DNA of 17,054 nt. Origin: an uncultured Desulfobulbus sp. GTDB taxonomy: Bacteria > Desulfobacterota > Desulfobulbia > Desulfobulbales > Desulfobulbaceae. Within the stretch, counting starts at the first letter, position 1. The number at the start of each line of letters is the position of its first letter. A model generated the notes under the pieces. That model searched no databases. It saw only the letters and a program-made list of their open reading frames with translations, and was not told the origin of the DNA. Below are positions 1,328-14,793 of this stretch, one piece after another. The stretch covers positions 1 through 17,054 of the forward strand of contig CAMNHX010000002.1 in NCBI GenBank assembly GCA_946539945.1, in the 5' to 3' direction. The translations under genes and the position numbers were made by a program.

Positions 1328-1377
1328 GGTTTTTTGCCTCTCGTCTGTTTTGTCTGGTCTGTGCCGAATATCCTGAA

Positions 1378-1445
1378 GAATATCGGGAAGGCGGCAGGAG
1401 ACGGACTTTTACCGCTTCGCTGACAAGTCGCTTGTTCAGCATGAC
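1378..1445. repeat. Dispersed intergenic repeat, partial copy L1
   Basis: This stretch carries a GAATATCGGGAAGGCGGCAG box (from 1378) and ends with TTCAGCATGAC (1435-1445). The same two boxes occur in the copies at 1459-1588 and 14596-14784, and the ending also occurs at 14300-14449, all in the same orientation. It encodes nothing convincing. It appears to be a fragment of a non-autonomous intergenic repeat whose ends read GTCATNNTGA and its complement. Confidence 0.6.
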
Positions 1446-1458
1446 AGGGAAAGAAACT

Positions 1459-1615
1459 GTCATTCTGAAGAAGCGAAGCGCTGAAGAATTTCAAGGAGAG
1501 TACCGGGAAGAAGGCAGGAGTTGCTTTTGCCGATATTCTGGAATCCGTTTGGAGATACTTCACTCCGCTCCGCTTTGTTCAGTATGACATAAAAAGTGAA
1601 CGCAGAAACGCTCTA
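1459..1615. repeat. Dispersed intergenic repeat, copy L2 with A/T-rich tail
   Basis: The copy starts with GTCATTCTGA (1459-1468) and reaches its inverted counterpart TTCAGTATGAC at 1578-1588. A tail ending in GAAACGCTCTA (to 1615) closely matches the tails at about 14465-14488 and 14762-14784. Inside is the GAGTACCGGGAAG box (1498-1510). The element's terminal CTA supplies the TAG stop codon of the 65-aa gene on the minus strand, so it abuts or has clipped that gene. No U-tract terminator is visible here. Confidence 0.6.
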
Positions 1616-1810
1616 AAATAATTGACATCCCTGTTCCTTGTATTCCTTGACTCGCTCCAGAAGAAAATCTGTATCAACTTCCAAGAAATCTGCCAAGCAA
1701 TCCAAACAGTAAAAAGAAGTGGTTTCCATCTCAATCAATTTTTTTGTGAGTCCAATTTCGTTCCTGGTCAAAGGGATTTTTCCGCATACACAGCAATGAT
1801 GCTTTTTCAT
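1613..1810 (-). CDS. Small putative zinc-binding protein, last gene of the BREX operon
   Basis: This 65-aa protein has two CxxC pairs (C6/C9 and C35/C38) about 25 residues apart, the spacing of a zinc ribbon or treble-clef knuckle, plus C62 near the end in GCQLF. The region between is charged and probably helical. The ATG is 6 bases after the brxL stop and has no clear Shine-Dalgarno, so it is probably translated by coupling to brxL. The stop codon lies in the last bases of a dispersed repeat, so the natural C-terminus may have been altered. I do not recognise a named family, although the C-terminal motif looks like that of small conserved proteins of unknown function. Its place suggests a BREX accessory role, but co-location is the only evidence. 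Confidence 0.7.
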   Translation of the reverse strand: MKKHHCCVCGKIPLTRNEIGLTKKLIEMETTSFYCLDCLADFLEVDTDFLLERVKEYKEQGCQLF

Positions 1811-1816
1811 AAAGGC

Positions 1817-3271
1817 TTATTGAGGGATCAGTTTGACATCAAATTTGGGCATATCCTTGCCGCGAAATTCCAAATCAAGATAGCCCAATTGATTTTTTAT
1901 GGTTTCTCTCATCCATTTGGACCGAATCAAACAGTAGCGCCTGAAGGTTTCTGGATCAATATCTGTGGAACTCCGCACATGAGGAAAGAGCAGCTTGAGG
2001 TAAGCGGTTGCAATTCGTTTGACTGCTTCTGTATCTCTGGTGTCAGCAGCTTCTGGCACTTCAATCAGTTCATCAACGATGACACGGTAGCTCAAGTCTT
2101 CTCGCAACTCGTGCATGATCGCGCTGAAGTATTCTGAATTGAGCGCCCAGCCGGAGACTTTCAAATCATCATTCATTCTGGGGATATTCCACCCCTTGAT
2201 AAACCCATGAAAACGCTCTATCAGGGCCGATTCCCTGAACACAGATGGCAACTCTTCAAACATATTGGTAAATCCGTCCTGATCCATGGTTTCCTTTTTA
2301 ATGTTTCCGCACAGAATCACGCCAGCATCTGCCTTACCCTCATAGTTTCCAACAGTGAAAATACCGGATTCCAAATAACCTTTCAGAGCTGCTCGCATTT
2401 CATCCACATCAGTAAAAGAAATTGTCTGTACCTCGTCAAGGGTAACAAAGTCATTTCCTGCAACCAGTCCTTCACGTCGCTTGCTCAAATCGTAGAACAT
2501 TTTGGCACGGCTCATTACTCCGCCGCTGGATAGCCAGCCAAAACGGCTGACTCTCCCGAAGAGGTAGGATTTTCCTGTTCCTTTTGGAGCCAACTCAATC
2601 AGGTTCAAGCGCTTTTCCACAAAGGGCAACAAACGGGTCAGCATGGTCAGTTTTTTTTCTTCATCACCCCGGTAGCCTTCAGCATTGTAGTCCACTGCAC
2701 CCAAAAGAACATCCAGCCATTCTTCCGTGGAGAATTCTTTTCGAGCCTCTTTGAAATAGTCAAGATCAACTGTATAAGGACAGAAAGTCTTGAATGAAAT
2801 CAGTTTGATCTTGCCTCCACTTTTTCCTCCTTCTTCTCCATTGGGAACACGATAACCCAGTTCCACCAAACCCCAAGTCTCCCTGCCGCCCACAAGATCA
2901 CCCTTACAGCAGTCCCACACTTCATCTTCAATTACCGTGTCTCCGTACATCAAACCAAAGTCGGGAAGGGCAAAGGAAACCCCTGCAGTGCTGATGTTTA
3001 TGTCCACAGAGACTTTGGCCAGAAATTTGACCCGCTCATGTTCAATTACCACTCTATTCTTGATGGAAGTCCAGTCTTCCTTACGTGGCAGATACCGACG
3101 CACAAAGTCTTCAATCTCATACTGGTCAAAATGACCATTTTCATCGGCAAAACGCTTCAAAAGCCAATCACGCATAAAAGATGGTAGGGTAAGGGCAGAA
3201 AAGAAATTGCTCTTCTTGAGATCCTTATACACAACCATCTCGTCAAAGCAGTTTCTCAACTTGTCGATCAT
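1817..3271 (-). CDS. brxL: BrxL, BREX AAA+ ATPase (short form)
   Basis: This 484-aa protein matches the BrxL family. It has an N-terminal domain (about 1-200, with the motif VSVDINIS near 87-94) and an AAA+ core with Walker A APKGTGKS (228-235), Walker B VTLDEVQ (276-282), a GNI sensor-like stretch near 322-324 and ERFHGF (352-357) as a likely arginine finger. In type 1 BREX, BrxL is a DNA-binding AAA+ oligomer needed for phage restriction. Long BrxL forms (about 680 aa) carry a Lon-like C-terminal protease domain. This protein ends about 120 residues after the ATPase core, with no room for that domain, so an ATP-driven DNA or protein remodeller is likelier than a protease. The start at 3271 has GGGGAG 7 bases upstream, overlapping the pglZ stop, with a 12-bp gap. 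G+C looks lower than in pglZ and brxC. Confidence 0.88.
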   Translation of the reverse strand: MIDKLRNCFDEMVVYKDLKKSNFFSALTLPSFMRDWLLKRFADENGHFDQYEIEDFVRRYLPRKEDWTSIKNRVVIEHERVKFLAKVSVDINISTAGVSFALPDFGLMYGDTVIEDEVWDCCKGDLVGGRETWGLVELGYRVPNGEEGGKSGGKIKLISFKTFCPYTVDLDYFKEARKEFSTEEWLDVLLGAVDYNAEGYRGDEEKKLTMLTRLLPFVEKRLNLIELAPKGTGKSYLFGRVSRFGWLSSGGVMSRAKMFYDLSKRREGLVAGNDFVTLDEVQTISFTDVDEMRAALKGYLESGIFTVGNYEGKADAGVILCGNIKKETMDQDGFTNMFEELPSVFRESALIERFHGFIKGWNIPRMNDDLKVSGWALNSEYFSAIMHELREDLSYRVIVDELIEVPEAADTRDTEAVKRIATAYLKLLFPHVRSSTDIDPETFRRYCLIRSKWMRETIKNQLGYLDLEFRGKDMPKFDVKLIPQ

Positions 3272-3283
3272 GGCAATTCTCCC

Positions 3284-5572
3284 CTAAAACAGACTGTCAA
3301 ATTCGTCATTTGTTGTAGCACTTTTGCCTACAGCCTTGAATTTTATGTCTTTAAATACCTCATCCCCAGCATGAACTTCGACAAAATACTCTCCTGCCCG
3401 ATTTATATCCGGGATACTAACCAGAAAATGCTGGCGATCTGTATGAGGTTCAGCAGAGTACACCTTATCCTTCCAAAGCAAATGCACCTGACACTTCTGG
3501 TCCACCGGATGATTAAAGTAGAGTTCAATCTGTGTTCCTGTTTTAGAGTCGGCTTTGACTTGTTTCTCTACCACTTCCACAGTCAGGGCGCTGTTCTTCA
3601 GCGAGAGTTCAATCAGGGGAACCACTACTTCTTCCAGAGAAGCGCCGCCGTGGACCTCCACATCCGCTGCCCGGCTTCCCTTGAAACGCCCATAATCCGC
3701 CAGCACCAGCCAGCCGTTTTCTTCTGTGGCGCAGGGCAGATCCCAGTCGGCAAAGGCAGGACAGCAACGGCCCGAGTGCTTGCCTTGGGTTTCGGTTTCA
3801 TACTTTTCTGTCTTGTTGTGCAGCACAGCCAGCCGGGAAGTGCCGTGATCGCTGACAATGAGTATCCGCTTGTACTTGTCGTCCTTGAGCATCCGGGCTG
3901 CTTTTTCCATCACATCAGCAATGATCTCCAACTCTTTGGCAAGGTGGATAGGCAGTTGCTCCTTGGTGAAGTCGTAGCTGCTCCGGTCAGCGTGTTTGAT
4001 CTTGTCCAGTTCCTTGTCCGAGAACTTCTCGCCCGGCCAGTCGTCGTAAAAATGGCGGTTTTCAGAAGTAATGGTCGGCAATGCTGCACGGGCAAGGTGA
4101 ACCCGCAAAGTCAGCTTCTTTTTTTTGGCCTGTGCCTCCATAAAGGCCAGATATTCCACGCCGAGCGCGTCCAGCCAGTAGAGCAGTGTGTCCTTTTGCG
4201 TGTCCTTTCTGTTCAGCTTGGGCAGTACCTGTTCCCGGGTGGGCAGACGGTTGAAAGGGCGCTTGTGCGCCAATTCCTCCACTTGGGCCAGAAAGTCAGG
4301 GTCCAGCGTGTTGCACACCTTTTGCCGCCGATAGTCGGCAAAGTAGTGGGTCAGCAGTTCTGCTTGATCTGTACCTTTGAATCGATACGGCTTCAGATAG
4401 TCTGCCAGATCAGGGTAAATGTTTTCCAGATGCTCGTACAGTCCATGCTGGGCTATCCAGGCCAGAACAGCCTGCCGCTCTCTTATGGTATTGTCAGTCA
4501 GGCGGCAGATGCTTTCCTTCTGCCTTTTGTTGTTGGCCTGTATGAAATCAATAATGTCCGACTCTGCAAAGGATTTGACCAGTTTCTTGCGCTCCTGATA
4601 CCAACGGGCAAAATTCGGATCTTGAGGTGAAATTGAGACCAGGGCTATATTCAGTTCCTTGCCCAGTTGCTCCAGACTGGAAGCCCGGTTCAACGCAAAG
4701 CGCAGATAGCTGTTGTGCAGCTTGTCCCGCTTGGTGTGCAGGCACAGAAAGGCAAGCCAGTTGCGAAAGGTCTGATCTTGCAGAAAGTCAGACAGATTTT
4801 GCTCCAGATTGCCGTCCAGTCCGTGAGCAGAAAAGACGGCTTCCAGAGAACCCTGGTGCTGGTTCAGTTCTGCCAGCAGTTCTGCCCACTGCGCTTCAGT
4901 GCCGCCGCTTTCCGGGACCTCAAGGTTGGACACGGTTTGGCGCACGCCGTCATAAGCACTTTTGATCGCACCAACCGTGCAGAGGGACTCGGCAAAACTG
5001 ACTGCTGTGCAGACAGGGAGTCGCCCCTGTCTGCCCGTTTCCAGACTCTCCAACAGGGCCTTGAACCCGGAAATCGCGGCCAGTCCCAGATTGGGCGCAA
5101 CCAGTGTGACAGCCAGATCACAGTCCGTCGGTTCCAGTACGCAAAAGCGCCGCCCGTCAAAGCGCGGATCCCGCTGCAGTTCCGTGAGCTGGGCGGCAAG
5201 TCCGCGCAACAGCAGAACCACCTTGCCATTCTCCAGGTTCATGTCTTTCAGTCGGGCCAAGGTGTCGTCCGCCTGTCTTTTACCGCGCAAAGCCAGATAC
5301 TCCCCCAAGCCTGTGACCAGTAGCTTGTGCGGGCTTGTCCTGACTTCGCCCATCAGTGCGTCAAGGTTGGGCACTTTGTCTGGTCCGCTGCAAAAGCAGC
5401 TGGTTTTGCACTCTTGCAGACCAAAGCCAAGCAGTTCAGTCCTGACGCTTTGGTAAGCTGCATCGCCCACAAACACAAAGAAGGGTGTCGTGGCAGATGA
5501 TGCGGAAAAGGGCGCAGTGGCAGAGGGTACGGAAAAGGAGGCTGTCAAGTAGTGCTGTACCTCTTCAAGCAT
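3284..5572 (-). CDS. pglZ: PglZ, BREX alkaline-phosphatase-fold protein (BREX-4 type)
   Basis: This 762-aa protein belongs to the PglZ family, the signature component of all BREX systems. The phosphatase-fold region is about residues 460-660. It has YWLDALGVEYL (465-475) with the putative nucleophile-side D468, SDHGTSRL (574-581) with metal-ligand-like D575 and H576, and VHGGASLEEVVVPLIEL (640-656). The long N-terminal part (about 80-450) is helical and variable; the last 100 residues look like a small beta domain. PglZ is thought to act with BrxC in the modification and exclusion complex, but its substrate is unknown. The ATG at 5572 overlaps the brxC stop by 8 nt and has GGAGGA about 10 bases upstream. 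Residues 11-28 are a 9-residue tandem duplication (54 bp), probably a flexible, lineage-specific insertion. The protein is otherwise intact. Confidence 0.9.
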   Translation of the reverse strand: MLEEVQHYLTASFSVPSATAPFSASSATTPFFVFVGDAAYQSVRTELLGFGLQECKTSCFCSGPDKVPNLDALMGEVRTSPHKLLVTGLGEYLALRGKRQADDTLARLKDMNLENGKVVLLLRGLAAQLTELQRDPRFDGRRFCVLEPTDCDLAVTLVAPNLGLAAISGFKALLESLETGRQGRLPVCTAVSFAESLCTVGAIKSAYDGVRQTVSNLEVPESGGTEAQWAELLAELNQHQGSLEAVFSAHGLDGNLEQNLSDFLQDQTFRNWLAFLCLHTKRDKLHNSYLRFALNRASSLEQLGKELNIALVSISPQDPNFARWYQERKKLVKSFAESDIIDFIQANNKRQKESICRLTDNTIRERQAVLAWIAQHGLYEHLENIYPDLADYLKPYRFKGTDQAELLTHYFADYRRQKVCNTLDPDFLAQVEELAHKRPFNRLPTREQVLPKLNRKDTQKDTLLYWLDALGVEYLAFMEAQAKKKKLTLRVHLARAALPTITSENRHFYDDWPGEKFSDKELDKIKHADRSSYDFTKEQLPIHLAKELEIIADVMEKAARMLKDDKYKRILIVSDHGTSRLAVLHNKTEKYETETQGKHSGRCCPAFADWDLPCATEENGWLVLADYGRFKGSRAADVEVHGGASLEEVVVPLIELSLKNSALTVEVVEKQVKADSKTGTQIELYFNHPVDQKCQVHLLWKDKVYSAEPHTDRQHFLVSIPDINRAGEYFVEVHAGDEVFKDIKFKAVGKSATTNDEFDSLF
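5490..5543 (-). repeat. 27-bp tandem duplication inside pglZ
   Basis: Two adjacent 27-bp units (5490-5516 and 5517-5543) both begin GTGGCAGA on the plus strand and carry the shared core CGGAAAAGG. They encode the nonapeptides ASFSVPSAT and APFSASSAT near the PglZ N-terminus. A decayed third half-unit (TPFF) follows in the protein. The units keep the reading frame. Confidence 0.75.
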
Positions 5573-8500
5573 CGTCCTGTTCTCCTCCGGTCTGCTCTGC
5601 CAGAATGGCCAGCCCCACCTGGATATTGCCCGAAACCAGCGCCTTGAGATAGCGTTTCAACTGGGCATCGCCCATTTCCTCGATCTTGCGCAGGACCCGG
5701 TCGCTACCACCTGCCTGATACTCTGCTTCGGCAAGTTGCTGTACTTTTTTGCGGATATGCGGGTTCCTGTCCCAGTCGTACACGCTAACATCTACTACAG
5801 TTTCCAGCCTGTCTCGCACCGTGTTCAGGTCAGTCAGCAGGAGCGCATAGTCTTGCAACACAGCGTCACTGAACAGCGCATCGCGCCGGGTCTCGTCCTG
5901 TATGACCTCAAAGAGCTTTGTCTGTTCAAGAAAGCGCAGTCCAGCCTGAATGTCAGTCTCTGCTGCGCCCCAGTTCTTGTTGAGAATCTCAAAGGTGGTC
6001 TGGGCCTGTTCGTATTCCTCGTCTGCCACACAGCAGAGAATGGGCGTGCGGTAGCGTTGCGACCACTCTTCTGGCGTTCTGGTGTTGGTTTTGTCCCGCC
6101 ACAAGCGGAAGAGTTTGGATTTGAGCTGGTTCTTTTTGAACTCCTCTGCCTTGCTTTTGACGCAGGCATTGCAGTCTGTGGCAGACAGGGCAAAGAGTCC
6201 GTGTGGCAGGTCATTTTTGACTGCCTCAATCTCTTCTGCGCCCAGTTCTTCCAGATAGGGCGCGTACAGTTTGGCAAAGAGGGTGCTTTCCCCGTCCAGA
6301 ATCGCCTTGAGGGCAGCCCCCTGCGTCACAAGGTCCTGGTGCAGGTACTGCCACTGTTCAGGGAGCAGGTTTTCTCTCCTGTACACCTTCAAAAGTCCGT
6401 CCAGGACCTTGCCCAGTTCTGGCTGTCGTTGTTTCAGGGCATCGCAGGAGATACGGAACAGGTTCAAGCGCTCCTGCCAAGCCTTGCAGGCTGCCTCACG
6501 GGAAGAGGCTGAAGCGTTGAGCAGGTCCTGGCTGGTTTTGGCAAAGCCGTAATCGGTCAGGAGCTTACGGATTTCATTTTCCCCGATCTCCCGGTCCCAA
6601 AGGTTGGCGTGTTCTACATCAAAGAGGCTGCGGATGTCGTTCAGTACCGAGCTTTCCGCGCCAATTTCAGCGGCGAGTTGCAGAATCCTGCCGCCCTCAA
6701 AGTGGCGCAAAAAGTCCCGCATTCCCCGTTGGCACTGTTCCTTGCCCAGCAGTTCGCGCAGACAGGTAGCCAGATTGGGCTTGATCACAGCAATGCGCCC
6801 CAGTTCCACTGCCCTTCTGTGGGCTTCCTGCCCGCTGCTGCGCCCCAGTTCAATATAGCGTTGCACAATGTCAAAGCAACCACCCTCATCAATGCCTTCA
6901 AGACACCAGATCGGCAGACCCCATTCCTTCATCTTCTTGCCAATAGCCCTGGCTGCCTGATCGGCGGAGGTGCAGTTCTGCGCCGGAATATCCCAAACCT
7001 TTTCCGTCAACTCATAAAAGGCCATTTCATCCGGCGTCATTCTGACAAGGGCTGTGGTCTTGAGTCTGGCTCTCTTGGCAGGGTTGATATAGTCGCCCAG
7101 CATCTCGGCGAGTTTGTCTGGGGTCATGGGTTCGTGTGCGCCGGAAGAGTCACTGTAGCGATAGGGATCGCTGCTGTACTCCTTCAGGAGAAAGCCTGCC
7201 AGAAAGGCGGAGAGGTTACAGGGTGCAAAGCCGAACTGTCCTTCCAGCAGATCATATATGGCGCTGGTGGTAATCTGGCCTTCTTCCTGAAATGCCTTTT
7301 GAATGTGCGCATCCAGGGCAGACTTGATCTTGGCAATGTCTGCGGAGGCTGGTGAGGGATTGGTCCAGTAGTCAGGTTCAGCCAAAGTCCAGACTGTGGG
7401 CAGCAGATGCTTTTCCAGTCCCACCACAACACCGCTGCTCTTCTGGACAATGCCAGCCTTGGCAGACTGCTTTAGGGAACTGGGCTTGAACTGCGCCTCG
7501 GTCAGCCCTCTGGCAAAGTCAAAGACCAGAGGAAAGCGCTTTCTCACAATGACTTGCAGGATGCTGGCCACGCCTTGGGCATTGCCCACCTTTTCGCCTT
7601 CCTGATTGTCAAAGCTGGAGACTATAAAAGAGCCGTTGTATATGCGGTTTTTCCAGTCCTGTTCCAGAACCTGTTTGGCCTTGGCCGAGTTTTCAGCGGA
7701 TGCCTGGTTGTTACTCCCCTGATAGTACATGGACATGGCCGAATATTCCACATACTGTTCCAGTGCTTCCTCGCCAATGGGCGTGGACAGTGCATCAATG
7801 AACACGATGTTCCGGTACTCTTCCTTGCGGACAGCCTCCCTGATCTTCTCGCGCAGACCTGCAGCCTCGTTGTTGTCCCGGGCAAAGGCCAGAACCGCCT
7901 GAAATCTCCAATCTGCCGCCTTGTCACGCAATATATTGATGTTCTTGGTAAAGTCGGAATCAGTGACTGCTGTAATTTTGCCACTGCCTGCTTCAGTCTC
8001 AAAGCGCAGACGCAGGGCCGGAGGCAGGGCCAAAACAGAGGCCAAGCCGCCTTCTGTGACCAGTTTGGCAGTAGAACTGCTCAAGCGCACATCCTGCTTG
8101 TACTTGTCGATTTTGATCTGATCGCCAGCCAGTACGGCTGCGGCATAAGCCTGCCGGTTGCCGCTGATGGGCCGGGATACCAGAATGCCCTTCTCCTTGA
8201 GACCGCGTGCCAGATGTCCGGCCCGGGAACCTTCCAGATCAGGGATGCCTTGAAACACGTAGCTCAAATACTGGTCTGTGGCCTTGAACAGGTCAATGAT
8301 TCCGCCCAGTCGCAGGTCAATGGCCTGCATGATAAGAATGGCCTTGAGTACGGTTTTTTCATCCTCGCGCAGGTCCTGCTGTTGGGGAAAGGTGTCCAGA
8401 ATAAGGCGGATGTCTGAACTCAAGTTGTCCTTGCCCCGGTCGTAGAAGAAGTTCCAGAGCAGATCCACAGTCAAAAAGGGGTGGGCACTGGCCGGACTGT

Positions 8501-9758
8501 TGTGGGCGATGAACCACTGGAAAGCCTGCACATTGTCGTTGCCGCTGGACTTGATGAAGTCAAACATACTCCGCTGGTTGGACTGGAAGGCGGTAGCGAT
8601 ATTTTTCAGCAGCAGGGCAGCCACGGGATGCAGGGGCAGAATTTTTCGCATCACCTCCGGGTCCTTGATGCCTGCTGCCTCCATGACCTTGCTGCGTACC
8701 GTGTCGACCCGGCTGTTCAGGTTTCCTGAAATCCGCGTCCATTCGTCTTGGGCGGGTTCTTTGATCTTGAGCGCATGACCGATGAGTTCAAAGGCAATGT
8801 TGTCTGGCAGGGAAATCTTTACCGGGTGGAAGCGGTCGCGAACCTTGGTCCAGGTGGTGTCTGCGGTGGTGAAGAGCTGCCCGGATTCGTGCGTCACCAC
8901 CACCAGATAAAAGGGTTTTGCACTGACCAGCTCGACCAGCTTCTGAAAGTCGGACAGGCTTTCCCGGTTGTTTTTGAAGTAGTCGGAAAACTCGTCCCAG
9001 AGAAAGACCACCTTGATGTTGTTTTGATCAATAATGTCGCTAATCCAGGCAATCAGGCGGTCTGCGTCAATGTTCAGGGCAGTGATACCCACCTTGTCCG
9101 CCAACCGGAACAGGTTGTCCATCAGGCTTTTGATCTCGCCGTCCCGACTACGCAGAGCGGTCAGAATCTCGTCTGCAGAGGACTGCGGGAAGAGCGCCGC
9201 CCATTCCGGTTCCTGCAAGAGTGAGTCCAGATAGGTCTTGTTGGCAGCGCTCTGTTCAATCCAGGCAATCACGCTGTCCTTGAGAGTGTTTTCGCCAGTG
9301 TACAGACCAGCCTTTTCCAGAGCGTCTTTCAGGGTATTCTGGATGGCCAGAAACAGGTCCCGGGGTGAGTTGATGGACCCGGAAGCGTAGCGATAGGCGG
9401 TCAAAACACCGCTTTGCCTGTGTCCAATCAGCTTTTCCAGCAAATCGGGCTTCTGTTTGAGTGCTTCGTATTTGTTCCAATAGGCCCGCAGTTCCTCTTC
9501 TGGCACTTCCAGTATTTTTTTCAAGGCATAGATGCACTGCGACTTTCCTGTTCCGTATGCGCCTTCCACCCAGAGCGTGCGCATTTCCTGTCGCGCCAGA
9601 ATGCGCTCCATGCTGGATAACATTTCGATGAAAGTGGAGTGCGGATAGGTGAAGGTCCAGAAATCCGGCCCTGCTGAACGGATGGTGAATTCGTTGACCT
9701 GTGGAAAGTAGTTTTCATCAATGTCAAAATAGGCACTGTACGGGTTAGAGTTAGACAT
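5565..9758 (-). CDS. brxC: BrxC/PglY-like P-loop ATPase of BREX type 4
   Basis: This 1397-aa ATPase has Walker A GAYGTGKS (66-73) close to the N-terminus and Walker B VVFLWDEF (250-257), with helical and wHTH-like stretches in the remaining thousand residues. Size, an N-terminal ATPase followed by a very long alpha-rich tail, and position between brxP and pglZ fit the BrxC/PglY proteins of BREX, and more exactly the DUF6079-like form of type 4. BrxC is a core subunit required for both modification and phage exclusion in studied systems. I chose the ATG at 9758, not the in-frame ATG 30 codons upstream. It has AGGAG about 7 bases before it, overlaps the brxP stop by only 8 nt, and the protein it starts (MSNSNPYSAYF) looks natural, whereas the extension is antisense-like. 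It overlaps pglZ by 8 nt. G+C is uniform at about 53% by eye. Confidence 0.87.
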   Translation of the reverse strand: MSNSNPYSAYFDIDENYFPQVNEFTIRSAGPDFWTFTYPHSTFIEMLSSMERILARQEMRTLWVEGAYGTGKSQCIYALKKILEVPEEELRAYWNKYEALKQKPDLLEKLIGHRQSGVLTAYRYASGSINSPRDLFLAIQNTLKDALEKAGLYTGENTLKDSVIAWIEQSAANKTYLDSLLQEPEWAALFPQSSADEILTALRSRDGEIKSLMDNLFRLADKVGITALNIDADRLIAWISDIIDQNNIKVVFLWDEFSDYFKNNRESLSDFQKLVELVSAKPFYLVVVTHESGQLFTTADTTWTKVRDRFHPVKISLPDNIAFELIGHALKIKEPAQDEWTRISGNLNSRVDTVRSKVMEAAGIKDPEVMRKILPLHPVAALLLKNIATAFQSNQRSMFDFIKSSGNDNVQAFQWFIAHNSPASAHPFLTVDLLWNFFYDRGKDNLSSDIRLILDTFPQQQDLREDEKTVLKAILIMQAIDLRLGGIIDLFKATDQYLSYVFQGIPDLEGSRAGHLARGLKEKGILVSRPISGNRQAYAAAVLAGDQIKIDKYKQDVRLSSSTAKLVTEGGLASVLALPPALRLRFETEAGSGKITAVTDSDFTKNINILRDKAADWRFQAVLAFARDNNEAAGLREKIREAVRKEEYRNIVFIDALSTPIGEEALEQYVEYSAMSMYYQGSNNQASAENSAKAKQVLEQDWKNRIYNGSFIVSSFDNQEGEKVGNAQGVASILQVIVRKRFPLVFDFARGLTEAQFKPSSLKQSAKAGIVQKSSGVVVGLEKHLLPTVWTLAEPDYWTNPSPASADIAKIKSALDAHIQKAFQEEGQITTSAIYDLLEGQFGFAPCNLSAFLAGFLLKEYSSDPYRYSDSSGAHEPMTPDKLAEMLGDYINPAKRARLKTTALVRMTPDEMAFYELTEKVWDIPAQNCTSADQAARAIGKKMKEWGLPIWCLEGIDEGGCFDIVQRYIELGRSSGQEAHRRAVELGRIAVIKPNLATCLRELLGKEQCQRGMRDFLRHFEGGRILQLAAEIGAESSVLNDIRSLFDVEHANLWDREIGENEIRKLLTDYGFAKTSQDLLNASASSREAACKAWQERLNLFRISCDALKQRQPELGKVLDGLLKVYRRENLLPEQWQYLHQDLVTQGAALKAILDGESTLFAKLYAPYLEELGAEEIEAVKNDLPHGLFALSATDCNACVKSKAEEFKKNQLKSKLFRLWRDKTNTRTPEEWSQRYRTPILCCVADEEYEQAQTTFEILNKNWGAAETDIQAGLRFLEQTKLFEVIQDETRRDALFSDAVLQDYALLLTDLNTVRDRLETVVDVSVYDWDRNPHIRKKVQQLAEAEYQAGGSDRVLRKIEEMGDAQLKRYLKALVSGNIQVGLAILAEQTGGEQDDA

Positions 9759-10518
9759 GGGCAGTCTCCTGGAACAGGGCAAGAACGTCTTGGGAGTTTT
9801 TATCTTCAGCCAAGGTAATTTTTTCCAAATCGTGGGTGAAGGATGCAATGATGAAGTCAGAATATCGAGCTGACAGCCCTAGAAGCATCGGAATAACGTC
9901 TTCACGGGACAGACCGAAAATACGTGTTGGAGTGATGCCGTCGCGCTCTATGCTATCATTCATCAGAGTTGCCAGAGTAAACTCCTTGTAATTATTGCAC
10001 TTCTCCGCAAATTTGAAGAGACCATAAAGAAAAACACGCGGATCTGTGATGGAACATTTTGTTCTGACAAGTTCATCTTTATCAGTTACATAACCAAAAT
10101 GTAAAACTGTTCCGAGTGGAGTTAATGAAATACGTTTATATGCTTTGAATATAGATTTAGCATCTTTTGGTTTAACTTCAACTGAAGTAAGCATATCTTC
10201 AACAGCTTTACGAGAATACATTTTATTTATTTCAAAATTATTGATATACCATTGTATTTGTGGATTTTCACAACTCAAATTTATCAGTATAAGTCCTTGA
10301 GATGTATCAGTATCCCATCCAATCTGTGATACCAATTCAGCAAATCGTGTAAAATGGTTTTTTTCATTCAATGAAGCATCTTTCAGGAATCTTCTGAACA
10401 TATCGAACATCATAGGCCCAAGATTATGTTCAGTAAAAAAGGATTCTTTCAATTCAAAAAATGAATGAAGCCATTCTATCTTTGGTGCATGATCAGCAAA
10501 TGAATTCAGACTCTTCAT
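9751..10518 (-). CDS. Candidate internal gene: free DUF4007-like protein (255 aa) in frame inside brxP
   Basis: Codon 526 of brxP is an ATG (10516-10518) preceded, after 7 bases, by an ideal Shine-Dalgarno formed by the codons CAA GGA GGA GGA. Translation from here would give a 255-aa protein starting MKSLNSFADHAP, with exactly the DUF4007-like region and none of the Fe-S or PP-loop parts. DUF4007 proteins are commonly separate genes of this size beside DndC-like PAPS reductases. Either two former genes fused by loss of a stop codon, or both a long and a short product are made. The ribosome site and frame are seen directly. The use of this start is inferred. Confidence 0.5.
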   Translation of the reverse strand: MKSLNSFADHAPKIEWLHSFFELKESFFTEHNLGPMMFDMFRRFLKDASLNEKNHFTRFAELVSQIGWDTDTSQGLILINLSCENPQIQWYINNFEINKMYSRKAVEDMLTSVEVKPKDAKSIFKAYKRISLTPLGTVLHFGYVTDKDELVRTKCSITDPRVFLYGLFKFAEKCNNYKEFTLATLMNDSIERDGITPTRIFGLSREDVIPMLLGLSARYSDFIIASFTHDLEKITLAEDKNSQDVLALFQETAHV

Positions 10519-12093
10519 CGATTTTCCTCCTCCTTGTGGATGCCGAAGTGAGTGAAATAACAGGCAACCGCCATCGATAGCGTGACATTCGTGACATTGT
10601 ACACAGTTCTTGATTTTCACTTTTCCATCTGAAAAACTTATAAACCCATTTCTGCAATTTGTTTCGCAAACCCTGCATCCGGTACAATATGCAGATTTTC
10701 TGAAAACTTGCCGGAAAAGTTTTGAAAATTCAGGATATTTCTTAAGTATTGTTTCTTTTATTTGGACAATATACCCTTTCTCTGTATCATTAACTGTAAA
10801 TTGTATATTATCATTTTCATATTGAATATAATATATATTTCCATATTCATATATATATCCAATTGTTTTTATCCACTCTTTCCATTCAGATTTTGGTTTT
10901 ATTACGCTAATAATAAGATTTCCTTCTTTTGATGATTCTGTACATAAAAAATCATTTTTCAATAATTCTCTTCCGTTTTTTCTGGCATTCCATCCTCCAT
11001 TGATAACATAAGATTCTTTTTTTTCTTTACTGTTTGCGCTATATGTTGACTGAATTATATGTATGAACACATCAATTTCTTGTTGGTAACTACTTCTTCT
11101 AAAAAAATCACTTATTCCACCAGACATAGGACAAAATAAACATCCAGCTCTTGCATTTCCTTTTTTATATGTATTATTTATATATATGTTATATTTATAC
11201 ATATATAACCAGATTTCAGCGGAAGTCCAATCAAGTATTGCATTATAACTGTATTGTCCCTTTTGCTTTTTTCCATAGTTTTCAAATGTATAATTAGATC
11301 TTTGTACACTTTCTTGGGATCTTATTCCTACAAAATCCAAACCAGTAAAGTTGCTTTTCTCTGTTATCCCCCTTAACTTAAGAGTTTGCGGGGCGCTCTT
11401 ATGTACAGAACAGCACCAACGCAAGACCCGTGAAGGAGGTCCAAAGAGATTCCACGACTCTTGCGGATCGAGATGGGATTTGGCGATATAAAAGGCAATG
11501 TTTTCTTCCTGACACTGCGCCTGCGTTCTGCGCACAACCTCGTATGTGTCCGGGAACTCCATGCCAGTGTCCCCGAAAATCACCACAAAACTGCCCTTGG
11601 GCAAAGCCTTTTTCACCAAATCCAGCAACACACAACTGTCCTTGCCGCCAGAAAAAGCAACGTGAAAACAGTCCACCCGTTTTTTGTACTTGGTATAGGT
11701 AGCCACAATCCGCTTGACTGTGACCTGCTCGATAACGTCCAAGACTTCCCGGTTGGCTGCCACCATGGCCGGAATGTCCACCGGGCGAAGCACCTTGCCG
11801 GGCGGCTCCGGCATGACCGGCTGTCCGCTTTCGTCTTCGGGAATGATGATCTCTGGCGCGGTAAAGGCGTTGCCTCCCTTGAGTTTGGCAACCAGAAGCC
11901 CGCGATAGAAATACTGGTTGGCTTCAGCCCACATATAGGGAGCTTCGCTTTGCCTGTCATAGGTCCAGTATTTGTCAAATCCCAGAAGCTCCAGTTCAGG
12001 TGCGTACACTGGCCGGGGTTCGCGGGAGAAGTTGGTAGGAGAAAAGTTGAGAAGTAGCCCTCCAGTTGCAGGATCATAAGTATAGGAATACAT
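9751..12093 (-). CDS. brxP: BrxP, PAPS-reductase/DndC-like enzyme with dicluster ferredoxin motif and DUF4007-like C-terminus
   Basis: In this 780-aa protein the PP-loop SGGKDS (148-153) marks the PAPS-reductase/ATP-pyrophosphatase superfamily that includes DndC, the DNA phosphorothioation enzyme. RWCCSVHK (C227, C228) and GCLFCP (C318, C321) are plausible ligands of a catalytic Fe-S cluster. Residues 470-510 hold two ferredoxin-type sets: C470/473/476/480 and C497/500/503/510. From residue 526 the sequence resembles DUF4007, with FGLSREDV near 726-733. In BREX type 4 this gene stands where other types have the methyltransferase PglX, so it probably makes the sulfur-based self mark; a cysteine desulfurase must come from elsewhere. 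The ATG at 12093 is one base after the upstream stop, behind GAAAGGG. The middle of the gene is strikingly A+T-rich, and a strong internal start precedes the DUF4007 part. Confidence 0.87.
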   Translation of the reverse strand: MYSYTYDPATGGLLLNFSPTNFSREPRPVYAPELELLGFDKYWTYDRQSEAPYMWAEANQYFYRGLLVAKLKGGNAFTAPEIIIPEDESGQPVMPEPPGKVLRPVDIPAMVAANREVLDVIEQVTVKRIVATYTKYKKRVDCFHVAFSGGKDSCVLLDLVKKALPKGSFVVIFGDTGMEFPDTYEVVRRTQAQCQEENIAFYIAKSHLDPQESWNLFGPPSRVLRWCCSVHKSAPQTLKLRGITEKSNFTGLDFVGIRSQESVQRSNYTFENYGKKQKGQYSYNAILDWTSAEIWLYMYKYNIYINNTYKKGNARAGCLFCPMSGGISDFFRRSSYQQEIDVFIHIIQSTYSANSKEKKESYVINGGWNARKNGRELLKNDFLCTESSKEGNLIISVIKPKSEWKEWIKTIGYIYEYGNIYYIQYENDNIQFTVNDTEKGYIVQIKETILKKYPEFSKLFRQVFRKSAYCTGCRVCETNCRNGFISFSDGKVKIKNCVQCHECHAIDGGCLLFHSLRHPQGGGKSMKSLNSFADHAPKIEWLHSFFELKESFFTEHNLGPMMFDMFRRFLKDASLNEKNHFTRFAELVSQIGWDTDTSQGLILINLSCENPQIQWYINNFEINKMYSRKAVEDMLTSVEVKPKDAKSIFKAYKRISLTPLGTVLHFGYVTDKDELVRTKCSITDPRVFLYGLFKFAEKCNNYKEFTLATLMNDSIERDGITPTRIFGLSREDVIPMLLGLSARYSDFIIASFTHDLEKITLAEDKNSQDVLALFQETAHV
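10030..11390. other. A+T-rich mosaic segment inside brxP
   Basis: Composition changes abruptly inside the gene. The 60 bases from 11821 contain 34 G/C, but the 60 bases from 10801 and from 11161 contain only 9 each, and long AT alternations occur. The right border near 11390 is sharp; the left border is more gradual and is interrupted by a moderate patch around 10500-10600. The segment encodes roughly residues 235-690, including the half of the PP-loop domain after the first catalytic cysteines, the Fe-S region and the start of DUF4007. The frame remains open throughout. Confidence 0.7.
10526..10535 (-). promoter_or_regulatory. Internal Shine-Dalgarno site within brxP
   Basis: The mRNA-sense sequence AAGGAGGAGG lies 7 bases before the in-frame ATG at 10518. 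It is the strongest ribosome-binding match in the operon, better than the one in front of full-length brxP. It translates as QGGG at the junction between the ferredoxin and DUF4007 parts, where a Gly-rich linker would also be tolerated, so its codons may serve both purposes. Confidence 0.6.
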
Positions 12094-12094
12094 A

Positions 12095-13933
12095 TCAATT
12101 CTGCCCTTTCTGAAGAAGTCTCGCCGCGCTCACAATCTCCTTAATTTTTGCGGATTTCCTAGCGATATATCCCTGATTTGTCAGAAATTCTCCTATCTCT
12201 TTTTCCGTAATTTTGACACCTGCCTGCAAGACAGCATCCACCAGAATACTGACATAAGACTGGTGACGTTTGTTGGATATAATTGCACCGCAGTTACTTG
12301 AATTTATTGTGAAGGTATCAAAGTGAAATGCCTCACTGAAGCGACGGCAGTACGTTTCCAGAACAAACAGATTCCACGTCTGTCCACAGTCAGGAAAAGC
12401 CGCAAAAGTTGTGAAAGTCTGTATTGGTGCAAAATCTTCAGTGATAAAATTGGCGATAACCCTGTCCGTTTCAGGAATGTCAAAATGAAAAAGGCTTTCT
12501 GAAACAAAGATGTCCTTGCCAGTACGGACCATTGCCGCGTTGCCCACTTCCATAATCATTTGCGCGGCAGGCTTGCTTCCAGTCAGTTCTTCTGCAAAAC
12601 CATTCAGTTCATCAAGAGAGCAATGTTCCTGGGTACGGCAATATTTTTCCATAATCACCCGCACATTCAGGACTTCACCCTTGCGCATGACAATTTTCCC
12701 TTTCCGGTCAAATGCCAAGGACAAACAGAGATTAAAAACAGCATTCTGCAAACCTGCTTCAGACAACTCATAGTTGCTTTCTGAAAGATCATCAAGAGAT
12801 AAATCTGCCAAGGAAGCATAGCCATCTTCTGTGCATTTTTTCAGAACTTCATCATATATTCTTGTCTTTTCTTCCTCTTCAATATGTACGTTTCTCAAGT
12901 TGGCATAGGTTTCCGTACCGTTGGAAACAAAATTTGCACTCTGTACCAGAGCATTTTTAATTCTATCAAGAGGAATATAGGGGAGTCTTTCAGAAAGTTG
13001 TTGGTATGTGAGCAGAACATTATCTCCCCATACCCGGATCAATTCATCTTCAATAGCAACAGGGATATTTCCTTGAATAGAGCCGAAATATGTTGCGGTA
13101 AAGACAAGAGTGCTGAATTTTTCCTGTAACAGCGTTTTCAGCATTTCTGATGAAATAACGCAGTGTTCATAAAGCCAAGTATAGTGACTTTCATAAAATT
13201 GTTCGTAAAAGATAATCTGTGCGCCATTGGCAAAGTATTGGCTGACCAATTCATAAATATGTTGAATTGTCTCATCTGAAACTGGATACACCTTTTGATG
13301 AAAAACAGGACCACAGGAGCAAATGCACTGGGTGAGGGTTTTGTCTGTGATTTTTTCGTTTATTGGTTTACCAATATCCTGAAAGGTAAATTCTCTGAAT
13401 CGTACCAATTCAATATCATCGTTTAGTCTGAATCCATTTGTGAAGTGCTTATACAGAACAGATCTTAAAATTTTTCGAACTTCATCAGGAATTTTTATTT
13501 TATTCTGTGCTTGTAAGGGCAACATTTCTTGATGAGGAACTGGAGAAGAAGAGGAAAATTTGTTTTCTGGAACAGTGCTTCCTGCGTTTCCTGTTTGCAA
13601 GAACTGCAAATAACGCAAAAAACACTTCATTCCAGAATCAAATGCACTTCCGGTTTTTGATTTTGCTTGTAGGTAATTTGGCGCGGTCTTCAGAATTGCC
13701 CAGTATTGGTTCAATTCTTCCGGGGTTTGGCAGGAGAAAATACTTTTGCTGGTCAGTTCAGGGGGGAGATCCAGCTTGGCAGGCATGGTACGAAGCGCCC
13801 ACATATAACTTCGAGCAACGTGTTCCAGATACAGCGTGCCGCGAGCGTTCGGTTGCGTGACCAGCCAGGCAACAACGCTTTCCGGGGAAATCGGCGGGCG
13901 CGAGGCTTCCTGTGGCCGGGCATCGGGCGACAT
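12095..13933 (-). CDS. Unrecognised 612-aa protein, first gene of the BREX operon
   Basis: I cannot assign a function. Residues about 18-115 form a helical block ending in KCFLRYLQFL. It resembles the N-terminal core-binding/SAM-like domain seen in some restriction-associated proteins. After a polar linker (about 116-145), the rest is alpha-rich with repeated short helix-turn-helix-like units, for example around 305-335, 437-475 and 565-600. There are conserved-looking cysteines in ICSCG (204-208) and in PDCGQTWNLFVLETYC (514-529). No catalytic motif, signal peptide or membrane segment is evident. A nucleic-acid-binding or regulatory role is a guess. The frame is open 105 codons further upstream, but I chose ATG 13933 because AAGGAG lies 7 bases before it and the upstream extension looks non-coding. 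The stop is one base before the brxP ATG, so the two are surely co-translated. Most of the gene is A+T-richer than its first 250 bases. Confidence 0.8.
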   Translation of the reverse strand: MSPDARPQEASRPPISPESVVAWLVTQPNARGTLYLEHVARSYMWALRTMPAKLDLPPELTSKSIFSCQTPEELNQYWAILKTAPNYLQAKSKTGSAFDSGMKCFLRYLQFLQTGNAGSTVPENKFSSSSPVPHQEMLPLQAQNKIKIPDEVRKILRSVLYKHFTNGFRLNDDIELVRFREFTFQDIGKPINEKITDKTLTQCICSCGPVFHQKVYPVSDETIQHIYELVSQYFANGAQIIFYEQFYESHYTWLYEHCVISSEMLKTLLQEKFSTLVFTATYFGSIQGNIPVAIEDELIRVWGDNVLLTYQQLSERLPYIPLDRIKNALVQSANFVSNGTETYANLRNVHIEEEEKTRIYDEVLKKCTEDGYASLADLSLDDLSESNYELSEAGLQNAVFNLCLSLAFDRKGKIVMRKGEVLNVRVIMEKYCRTQEHCSLDELNGFAEELTGSKPAAQMIMEVGNAAMVRTGKDIFVSESLFHFDIPETDRVIANFITEDFAPIQTFTTFAAFPDCGQTWNLFVLETYCRRFSEAFHFDTFTINSSNCGAIISNKRHQSYVSILVDAVLQAGVKITEKEIGEFLTNQGYIARKSAKIKEIVSAARLLQKGQN

Positions 13934-13940
13934 TGTGAGA

Positions 13941-13946
13941 CTCCTT
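13941..13946 (-). promoter_or_regulatory. Ribosome binding site that fixes the start of the first operon gene
   Basis: AAGGAG on the minus strand lies 7 bases before the ATG at 13933. No comparable site precedes the in-frame ATG at 14248, which is why the shorter 612-aa product is annotated. Confidence 0.75.
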
Positions 13947-14025
13947 GAAAAAGGCGAGAACGCCGTTTTGGCAAACGGATGACGACAAAACTGGTTTCCA
14001 TACCATAAGCAGAAGGGAAATGGAA

Positions 14026-14120
14026 GGGAACCTTGCAAAATAGCCGACAAGCTGAATTGCCGATTTTCCTCAACTTTACCTGCAAGGATGAACGCGGATT
14101 TTGAATTTTTCAAGGTTCCC
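14026..14120. repeat. Widely spaced 16-bp inverted repeat upstream of the BREX operon
   Basis: GGGAACCTTGCAAAAT (14026-14041) and the reverse complement of GGGAACCTTGAAAAAT (14105-14120) match at 15 of 16 positions. They are separated by 63 bp. The pair lies 93-187 bases upstream of the operon's first start codon, in a stretch without a gene. It could be a pair of operator half-sites allowing looping, or the base of a long stem in the leader RNA. I saw no clear -35/-10 pair nearby to decide between these. Confidence 0.55.
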
Positions 14121-14199
14121 GGAAGCGTGATGGCATCCAGTGCGGTTCCGCTTTCGTTTTTTATGTCATGGTAAACGTCAGAAAAAGTTGTACATTTTG

Positions 14200-14215
14200 A
14201 GCCGTGTTGACGGCT
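14200..14215. repeat. Small perfect hairpin
   Basis: AGCCGT-GTTG-ACGGCT is a 6-bp perfect stem with a 4-base loop. On neither strand is it followed by a convincing U-tract, so it is not an obvious terminator. It lies between the dispersed repeat and the spaced inverted repeat, in the presumed promoter and leader region of the operon. Confidence 0.4.
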
Positions 14216-14299
14216 GTTTGGCTCTGCGTGATTCAGGAAGATACGCACAGTCTATGTCAAAAAATTATGACGTTCACTACCGTGCTGATGCCCTGAAAA

Positions 14300-14449
14300 G
14301 TCATTTTGAGCGCGTCAGCGCAAAGAATCTCCAGATTTTGGCGGGAGATGGGCTTTTACCGTGCTTCGCACTGAAATATTTTTACCGTGCTTCGCACTGA
14401 AATACTTTTACCGTGCTTCGCACTGAAAAGTCGCTTCGTTCAGCATGAC
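14300..14449. repeat. Dispersed intergenic repeat, copy X
   Basis: This copy is bounded by GTCATTTTGAG (14300-14310) and the inverted counterpart TTCAGCATGAC (14439-14449), the same ends as in the copy at 1459-1588. The region after GGCGGGAGATGGGCTTTTACC resembles 1392-1413 in copy L1. An A-rich tail similar to that of the other copies (about 14465-14488) follows. It differs from the other copies by containing three tandem hairpin units. No coding sequence is visible. Confidence 0.6.
14354..14431. repeat. Three tandem 26-bp hairpin units
   Basis: The units at 14354-14379, 14380-14405 and 14406-14431 are identical for their first 23-24 bases (TTTTACCGTGCTTCGCACTG and following A's). Each contains the palindrome GTGC-TTC-GCAC. 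There is no spacer variation, so this is not a CRISPR array. It looks like local expansion of one arm of the surrounding dispersed repeat. Confidence 0.85.
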
Positions 14450-14546
14450 GGCCAAAGGGAAAGTAAAAAATGAAAACAGAAACGCTGTATTGTAAAACCT
14501 ATGAGACAACAGTACTTTTTGTAAGGTATATCCATCAATCAAACAC

Positions 14547-14579
14547 AAAAGGAGCCGGGGAAATCCCCGACTCCTTTTT
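14547..14579 (-). terminator. Rho-independent terminator, probably bidirectional
   Basis: GGAGCCGGGG-AAAT-CCCCGACTCC (14551-14574) forms a 10-bp stem with one C-A mismatch. On the minus strand it is followed by TTTTGTGTTT; on the plus strand by TTTTT. It lies about 220 bp past the stop of the acidic repeat protein and so most likely ends that transcript and insulates the BREX operon from upstream read-through. Confidence 0.8.
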
Positions 14580-14595
14580 CATACCTCTTTCTCTT

Positions 14596-14784
14596 TAGAG
14601 CGTTCCCGCTTTGTCTTTTTACTGTCTACTTTCACCGCTTCGCTGGAAAGTCTGAAGCGCGAAGCGCTGAAGGCTTTCCAGTGCGCCAGCACGGTGAAAG
14701 CAGTCATGGAGAATACCGGGAAGGCGGCGGGAGATGCTTCACTTCGTTCAGCATGACATCAAAAATGAAAACGGAAACGCTCTA
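14596..14784. mobile_element. 189-bp non-autonomous element with terminal inverted repeats (MITE-like)
   Basis: The left end TAGAGCGTTCCCGCTTT (14596-14612) matches the complement of the right end AAACGGAAACGCTCTA at 15 of 17 positions. The middle is a nested hairpin: CTTTCACCG (14629-14637) pairs with CGGTGAAAG (14692-14700), CTGGAAAG (14643-14650) with CTTTCCAG (14674-14681), and AGCGC-GAA-GCGCT sits at the tip. The right half (14711-14758) carries the GAATACCGGGAAGGCGGCGG box and the TTCAGCATGAC end shared with the other dispersed copies. No transposase is encoded. It ends 9 bp from the stop of the acidic protein gene. Clear target duplications are not evident. Confidence 0.6.
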
Positions 14785-14793
14785 TTACCCTGT

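Follow-up and report, generated by a model that had tools for sequence, protein, structure and literature searches.

Target-recognition domains of type I restriction enzymes can be told by the exchange of a single block through fixed borders with no change in the partner proteins, and such domains are exchanged both by the type I subunit HsdS and by PglX of the bacteriophage exclusion (BREX) type 1 system. For the related BREX type 4 (brxPCZL), phosphorothioation of DNA has reportedly been described, a preprint by Yuan et al. (10.1101/2024.06.03.597175) being the source cited for it. In the available parts of PMC12839542, PMC11931770 and PMC12707154, BREX-4 is treated as a phosphorothioation system, and the first of these also reports a small zinc-finger gene and a cysteine desulfurase, the latter in 56% of taxa. 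Here, a BREX type 4 operon was analyzed in a stretch of 17,054 nucleotides from an uncultured Desulfobulbus sp. (contig CAMNHX010000002.1; the whole stretch is called the window). The system is a member of the known type with two features that were not found described: a conserved first gene, for which the label gene5 was coined in this analysis, and an enzyme, BrxP, whose middle is exchanged as a cassette. No description of gene5 or of the cassette exchange, no published name for gene5 and no recognition domain assigned for BREX-4 was found in the literature searched, which included PMC12839542 and PMC10853773 and left supplementary files outside the search; the main text of PMC12839542 contains no occurrence of recombin-, mosaic or swap.

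Organization of the Operon and Domains of BrxP

The core set of BREX type 4 is intact, with all four genes on the minus strand in the order brxP (9751..12093, 780 amino acids, aa), brxC (5565..9758, 1397 aa from the ATG), pglZ (3284..5572, 762 aa, BREX-4 form) and brxL (1817..3271, 484 aa). The brxC ATG lies across the brxP stop in an overlap of 8 nt, brxC and pglZ overlap by another 8 nt, and pglZ and brxL are separated by a gap of 12 nt. An earlier note on this DNA, made from the sequence alone, had given this order, with overlaps or gaps of 12 nt or less and four intact core genes, and was borne out in each respect. Its description of the operon as complete held for the core genes; nevertheless, two members within its span (1613-13933) had been neither named nor recognized, namely gene5 (12095..13933, minus strand, 612 aa), the first gene, and a CxxC gene (1613..1810, minus strand, 65 aa, zinc-ribbon type by motif), the last one, and a desulfurase gene is absent.

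Seven long open reading frames (ORFs) of the window were scanned against PADLOC, Pfam and NCBIfam. The profile scores of the core genes were far above chance: BrxP matched PDLC02510 (E=1.5e-256), BrxC matched the BrxC/PglY ATPase profile PDLC02485 (1858 bits), and PglZ and BrxL matched PADLOC profiles at E=1.6e-211 and E=9.6e-225, respectively. In NCBIfam, PglZ reached 482 bits with BREX_PglZ_4 (NF033445, cut-off 140), which places it in the type 4 subfamily, and BrxL reached 400 bits with TIGR02688 (cut-off 329). The absence of a methyltransferase, also claimed before, was confirmed at E<=0.01 for the seven ORFs; brxP occupies the place of pglX, with BrxC and BrxL encoded in the same operon, as is proper to BREX type 4. 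The BrxL protein is of the short form and is not a truncation, since type 4 BrxL proteins are described without C-terminal extensions in the available parts of PMC12839542.

BrxP carries the motif SGGKDS at residues 148-153. It also has eight cysteines of the Fe-S type (470, 473, 476, 480, 497, 500, 503 and 510), invariant in 39/39 aligned BrxP proteins with the window counted. The PP-loop and the cysteines named in the earlier note both stand. In its structural model, the N-terminal half resembles PAPS reductase and the C-terminus resembles SspB, the order of parts being a PAPS-reductase (PP-loop) domain, an alpha+beta domain, the [4Fe-4S]-type cysteines and an SspB/DUF4007-like C-terminus. 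PAPS-reductase, ferredoxin-type and DUF4007/SspB-like parts are likewise given for BREX type 4 in the available parts of PMC12839542, and the order of the core genes, the short BrxL and the small zinc-finger gene of the window agree with that type too. The window departs from it in the lack of a desulfurase gene, in the mosaic structure of brxP and in gene5, which lies outside the five or six core components of section 34 of that paper.

The SspB-like fold of the Ssp system is thus present in BrxP. Unlike in the single-strand phosphorothioation system SspABCD, however, SspD- and SspB-like parts are fused in one protein, PglZ and BrxL accompany it, and no SspA or SspE profile matched among the seven ORFs, so that the set of separate sspA/B/C/D genes plus sspE was not found. 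The term "DndC-like" of the earlier note fits in part: BrxP shares a PP-loop sulfurtransferase domain with DndC of DndABCDE (E=1.2e-8), but it scored 30.8 bits against the DndC equivalog TIGR03183, whose cut-off is 290.4, it carries the SspB-like part, which had gone unnoticed, and no DndD or DndE profile matched the ORFs scanned. Since BrxP unites a PAPS-reductase domain with cysteines of the Fe-S type and a C-terminus like that of SspB, DNA phosphorothioation would be the right reading for it. The assignment to BREX type 4 with sulfur marking of DNA, proposed in the earlier note, is in keeping with these domains, with the NF033445 score and with the available parts of the literature on BREX-4. 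Phosphorothioation by BREX-4 has already been reported by others for relatives and is not new here.

gene5 Is a Conserved First Gene of the Operon

For gene5, scanned as a 717-aa ORF, the searches of Pfam, PADLOC and NCBIfam gave no match. A protein search detected 140 homologues, with sizes of 465-1067 aa among the 120 matches listed; several lie on contigs equal in length to those of BrxP homologues. Genome contigs were then scanned with an alignment of 26 proteins, and 43 loci were obtained from bacteria of several phyla and from archaea. In 41 of the 43, brxP was the next gene downstream, in the same orientation and at a distance of up to ~210 nt (1 nt in the window). The two exceptions are partial, one starting inside gene5 at a contig end (L029) and one covering aa 425-608 only (L044), and no brx gene was seen in the sequence stretch examined for either.

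The reverse search, starting from BrxP, covered 297 genomes of the window's phylum and 55 relatives overlapping that set, together with 398 and 395 genomes of the phyla of two other genomes (G344 and G343, respectively). All of the 11 genomes with a BrxP at least 39% identical to that of the window (the window's own excluded) had gene5 upstream of brxP, and eight of them were new, i.e., not reached through the gene5 search. No gene5 match at E<=1e-3 was found in the ~1.5-kb flanks of the 16 loci with a BrxP of at most 38% identity. Two BrxP branches, called below the gene5 branch and the distant branch, are separated at 39%, one locus without gene5 (G674) having 38%.

The AlphaFold2 (AF2) model of gene5 (mean pLDDT 88.6) consists of an N-terminal helical module (~aa 15-114) and a tandem winged-helix core (~aa 150-612). 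Its structural matches are arrays of winged helices, UFL1 and SelB among them, with scores that indicate a common arrangement only. The N-terminal module is present in zero (e.g., P0059) to three (P0002) copies among the homologues, and one relative, P0111, carries a HARE-HTH domain according to precomputed annotation. Across 31 loci, conservation was lowest in gene5 among the five main proteins, its median identity to the window being 38.3%, against 59.5% for BrxP, 49.5% for BrxC, 43.1% for PglZ and 76.5% for BrxL. The gene5 core co-varied with brxC (rho 0.73, 0.88 and 0.90 by third) and with pglZ (rho 0.89).

Two further observations were made on this family. When gene5 was compared with the 96% identical P0001, 10 of the 25 differences clustered at aa 88-100 of the N-terminal module (window 13634-13672). 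One genome (G364) contains eight gene5-like matches on three contigs (C14, C117 and C3), and its BREX-4 locus accounts for one of the eight.

The Middle of BrxP Is Exchanged as a Cassette

The GC content falls to ~32% inside brxP, where an AT-rich, exchangeable cassette was delimited at 10051..11385 (minus strand, codons ~237-681). A likelihood fit of the GC content at third codon positions (GC3) placed change-points at codons 248 and 691 (2-unit ranges 235-253 and 675-696), with segment values of 0.60, 0.19 and 0.52 and a gain of 63.3, compared with at most 11.6 in 100 shuffles. Independently, the BrxP protein P0237 was 99% identical to that of the window at aa 1-236 and 682-780 and 50% identical between, so that the identity borders and the GC3 steps lie at about the same places. 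In a single-contig genome of the same genus (G014), the GC content drops from 0.61-0.62 to 0.28-0.29 near codon 250 of a broken brxP, whose middle (aa 298 to ~590) is 39% identical to the window and 57% to P0237. This locus (L110) has gene5 and the broken brxP; no brxC, pglZ or brxL match was found in the 20 kb examined.

Three additional pairs of lineages switched at ~aa 240-300 and 660-690: L021/L008 (ends 0.92, middle 0.56), L020/P0149 (ends 0.91, middle 0.54) and L004/L006 (ends 0.91, middle 0.50), the last with a more gradual fall at the first border. The exchanged block runs from the last part of the PAPS-reductase domain through the alpha+beta stretch and the Fe-S region into the first part of the SspB-like domain. 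Pairwise identities were computed for 159 of 167 proteins. Among the 409 pairs with ends of at least 0.90, the middle was 0.50-0.60 in 31 and at least 0.75 in 378, and none fell between 0.60 and 0.75; the middle identities of pairs with close ends hence form two separate classes. Exchange of the type I restriction kind, i.e., one block swapped between otherwise very similar proteins, was accordingly observed. A comparison of the alpha+beta stretch (aa 335-445) with "the rest" (r=0.88, 2/396 close pairs discordant) had seemed to speak against shuffling and was rejected as badly posed, because "the rest" included aa 461-680 of the same cassette.

Over 12,556 pairs, identities were correlated between the N and C ends (r=0.88) and between the two halves of the middle (r=0.86), while the correlation with the middle was 0.66 for the N end and 0.59 for the C end. 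In trees of 36 BrxP proteins compared by the approximately unbiased (AU) test, the middle rejected the tree of the ends by 1491 log-likelihood units (3.4 per site); in the other direction, the ends rejected the tree of the middle by 820. For N and C, the rejection of the tree of the middle was ~2.5 per site, ~3.6 times their mutual rejection. Furthermore, the middle had a GC3 below the mean of the two ends in 37/40 gene5-branch loci (p=3.5e-11), again in 37/40 when fourfold sites alone were used (p=1.0e-10), and in 11/14 distant loci (p=0.013). No such pattern of a low-GC3 middle appeared when brxC (25/42), pglZ (25/40) and brxL (16/33) were cut into proportional thirds.

For the analysis of concordance, operons were retained if every segment was at least 70% present, which left 32: the window, 28 gene5 loci out of 43, and three loci found through BrxP, the others being incomplete. 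The gene5 core, the BrxP ends, BrxC, PglZ and BrxL agreed mutually at rho 0.64-0.96, BrxL being lowest (0.64-0.79). The BrxP middle was the most discordant segment compared (rho 0.49-0.62 with the others), and for its residues 331-450, compared with segments from outside the middle, rho was 0.30-0.48. gene5, which is less identical than BrxP, stays concordant, so that saturation does not account for this discordance. In the distant branch, the pattern was seen in one pair, L065/L066 (ends 0.83, middle 0.60).

Downstream End, Distant Branch and Flanking Sequence

The 65-aa CxxC protein had no Pfam match. By tblastn, relatives of its gene adjoined brxL in 24 of 25 related operons, and a cysteine desulfurase gene lay downstream in 15 of them; these are the operons with enough sequence, L115 (contig end) and L110 (no brxL) being excluded. 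In the distant branch, the CxxC gene was present in 5/11 loci and the desulfurase in 0/11. The window operon has no desulfurase gene and carries an M24 peptidase gene in that place, and since the desulfurase is optional, its absence does not cost the window its membership of BREX type 4. The source genome (406 contigs, 75% complete) contains a NifS-like gene on another contig, which is the likely sulfur donor for BrxP.

Upstream of brxP in the distant branch, one locus (L083) was linked to gene5 by an iterated profile on longer stretches, and its upstream gene resembles that of L084. Two loci have a sigma-type gene directly upstream of brxP on the minus strand: a complete sigma-70 factor with regions 1.1-4 in L079 (15017-16498), and the first part only, a sigma-70 region 1.1 domain, in L080 (15060-15701). 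Another upstream family occurs in five loci, L074 (3590-4705, plus strand), L076 (14984-16435), L086 (13747-14889), L087 (14987-16402) and L088 (2227-3369), the last four on the minus strand. Its members have 371-483 aa and are 67-72% identical to the first one, and no Pfam match was found in the two scanned. No clear upstream partner of brxP was seen in the remaining distant loci.

Additionally, short dispersed repeats flank the operon on both sides (window 1328-1612 and 13934-14793). The 15-mer TCATGCTGAACGAAG is exact in the right flank and occurs 89 times in the source genome (G000) with at most one mismatch, and never when read backwards. Beyond the right flank, a long open frame (14794-17052, minus strand), acidic, repetitive and rich in Ala and Glu, runs off the window end; it had no family match in PADLOC, Pfam or NCBIfam.

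Discussion

On the gene content, domain make-up, gene5 conservation and cassette exchange demonstrated above, a model can be drawn of a phosphorothioating BREX-4 with gene5 as partner and an exchangeable BrxP cassette that sets the target, and as a whole we consider it rather probable. The operon would mark host DNA with phosphorothioates and act against phage. BrxP would be the sulfur writer, with its PAPS-reductase domain activating the DNA phosphate, its Fe-S cysteines relaying sulfur that a housekeeping desulfurase of the NifS/IscS type supplies, and its SspB-like C-terminus engaging, and perhaps nicking, the DNA. BrxC, PglZ and BrxL would contribute the ATPase, a nuclease-family protein and an MCM-like component, respectively, to an exclusion machine that, as proposed in the earlier note, may exclude unmarked phage. 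gene5 would be a co-inherited DNA-binding partner built of tandem winged helices. The constant ends of BrxP, carrying the PP-loop and the last SspB-like segment, would dock into the complex, homologous recombination through the conserved borders would replace the cassette (aa ~237-681), and each replacement would change the DNA sequence that gets marked.

That the cassette sets the phosphorothioation target, by analogy with the target-recognition domains of restriction enzymes, seems to us about evenly balanced. The likeness to HsdS and PglX lies in the constant flanks, the exchangeable middle and the switches at conserved borders; the difference is that the BrxP block, with its putative target role, is part of a sulfurtransferase and has Fe-S ligands within it. 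Several points weigh against this reading. With the Fe-S cysteines inside it, the cassette is not a pure recognition domain. Of the 31 low-middle pairs, 28 involve L021 (the rest being L020/P0149, window/P0237 and L004/L006), which amounts to four recipient lineages and not to 31 events, and 378 of the 409 close pairs retain a similar middle. No recent donor was found, no pair having a middle above 0.9 and ends below 0.8, and the protein lists were biased to window-like middles. The N and C trees, taken as a control, also reject each other (~0.7 per site), and six other distant-branch pairs with ends of at least 0.78 lack the pattern (one of seven has it). Finally, the published Dnd specificity loop sits on DndC, as far as the available parts of PMC12193691 go; a target-choice loop on DndC therefore makes a location on BrxP plausible, though not necessarily the whole block.

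The same exchange data would also arise if phage-encoded inhibitors targeted the BrxP middle, which would then vary like an antigen while the phosphorothioate motif remained constant. The alpha+beta stretch (aa ~331-450) is the most discordant part and contains several of the most variable windows, and section 34 of PMC12839542 calls the role of this stretch unclear; nevertheless, the exchanged block extends over the Fe-S region and into the SspB-like domain, beyond what a surface patch would need, and we hold escape from inhibitors to be unlikely, though worth keeping in view, next to the evenly balanced role in specificity. An assembly chimera of two organisms in the metagenome bin might be suspected from the fragmented genome and the sharp GC step. 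It would, however, require two junctions returning to the same gene, and the GC step recurs in the same codon region of the single-contig genome G014, the same border zones in three further lineage pairs, and the GC3 difference in 37/40 loci, which makes a chimera extremely unlikely.

For the sulfur chemistry, the structural matches of the PP-loop part of BrxP include TtuA and NcsA, and its best NCBIfam matches, all below cut-off, are PRK13795-type "hypothetical proteins", which we take to be archaeal PAPS-reductase/ferredoxin proteins; BrxP might thus act like the PP-loop Fe-S enzymes of the TtuA/NcsA type and thiolate a non-DNA substrate, namely a tRNA or a nucleotide. Its SspB-like C-terminus, its partner BrxC with similarity to SspC and the phosphorothioation reported by others for BREX-4 argue for DNA as the substrate and leave the other very improbable. 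The main rival for gene5, in the role of a DNA-binding component of the complex that we infer from its model, is a mere transcriptional autoregulator of the operon with no part in marking or exclusion. BrxR/WYL regulators lie upstream of BREX-1, and gene5 too is first in its operon and has a tandem winged-helix fold; moreover, the distant locus L079 has its complete sigma-70 factor in that place, although this factor was not established as a gene5 homologue. The large size of the gene5 proteins, their modular N-terminus, the distance of 1 nt from brxP and a co-variation with brxC and pglZ as close as that of core parts fit a regulator poorly, which we regard as a doubtful but substantial possibility.

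gene5 is a candidate part for a BREX-4 rebuilt in a laboratory strain, and brxPCZL alone may be incomplete for the gene5 branch. The natural BrxP pairs with very similar ends and different middles are ready-made swaps, from whose marks it could be read if this protein determines the choice of target, and in which of its parts. It stands at about an even chance, in our view, that BREX-4 switches its phosphorothioate target in several phyla through swaps of a ~445-residue block at fixed borders, while the rest of the system, gene5 included, would be inherited as a unit.
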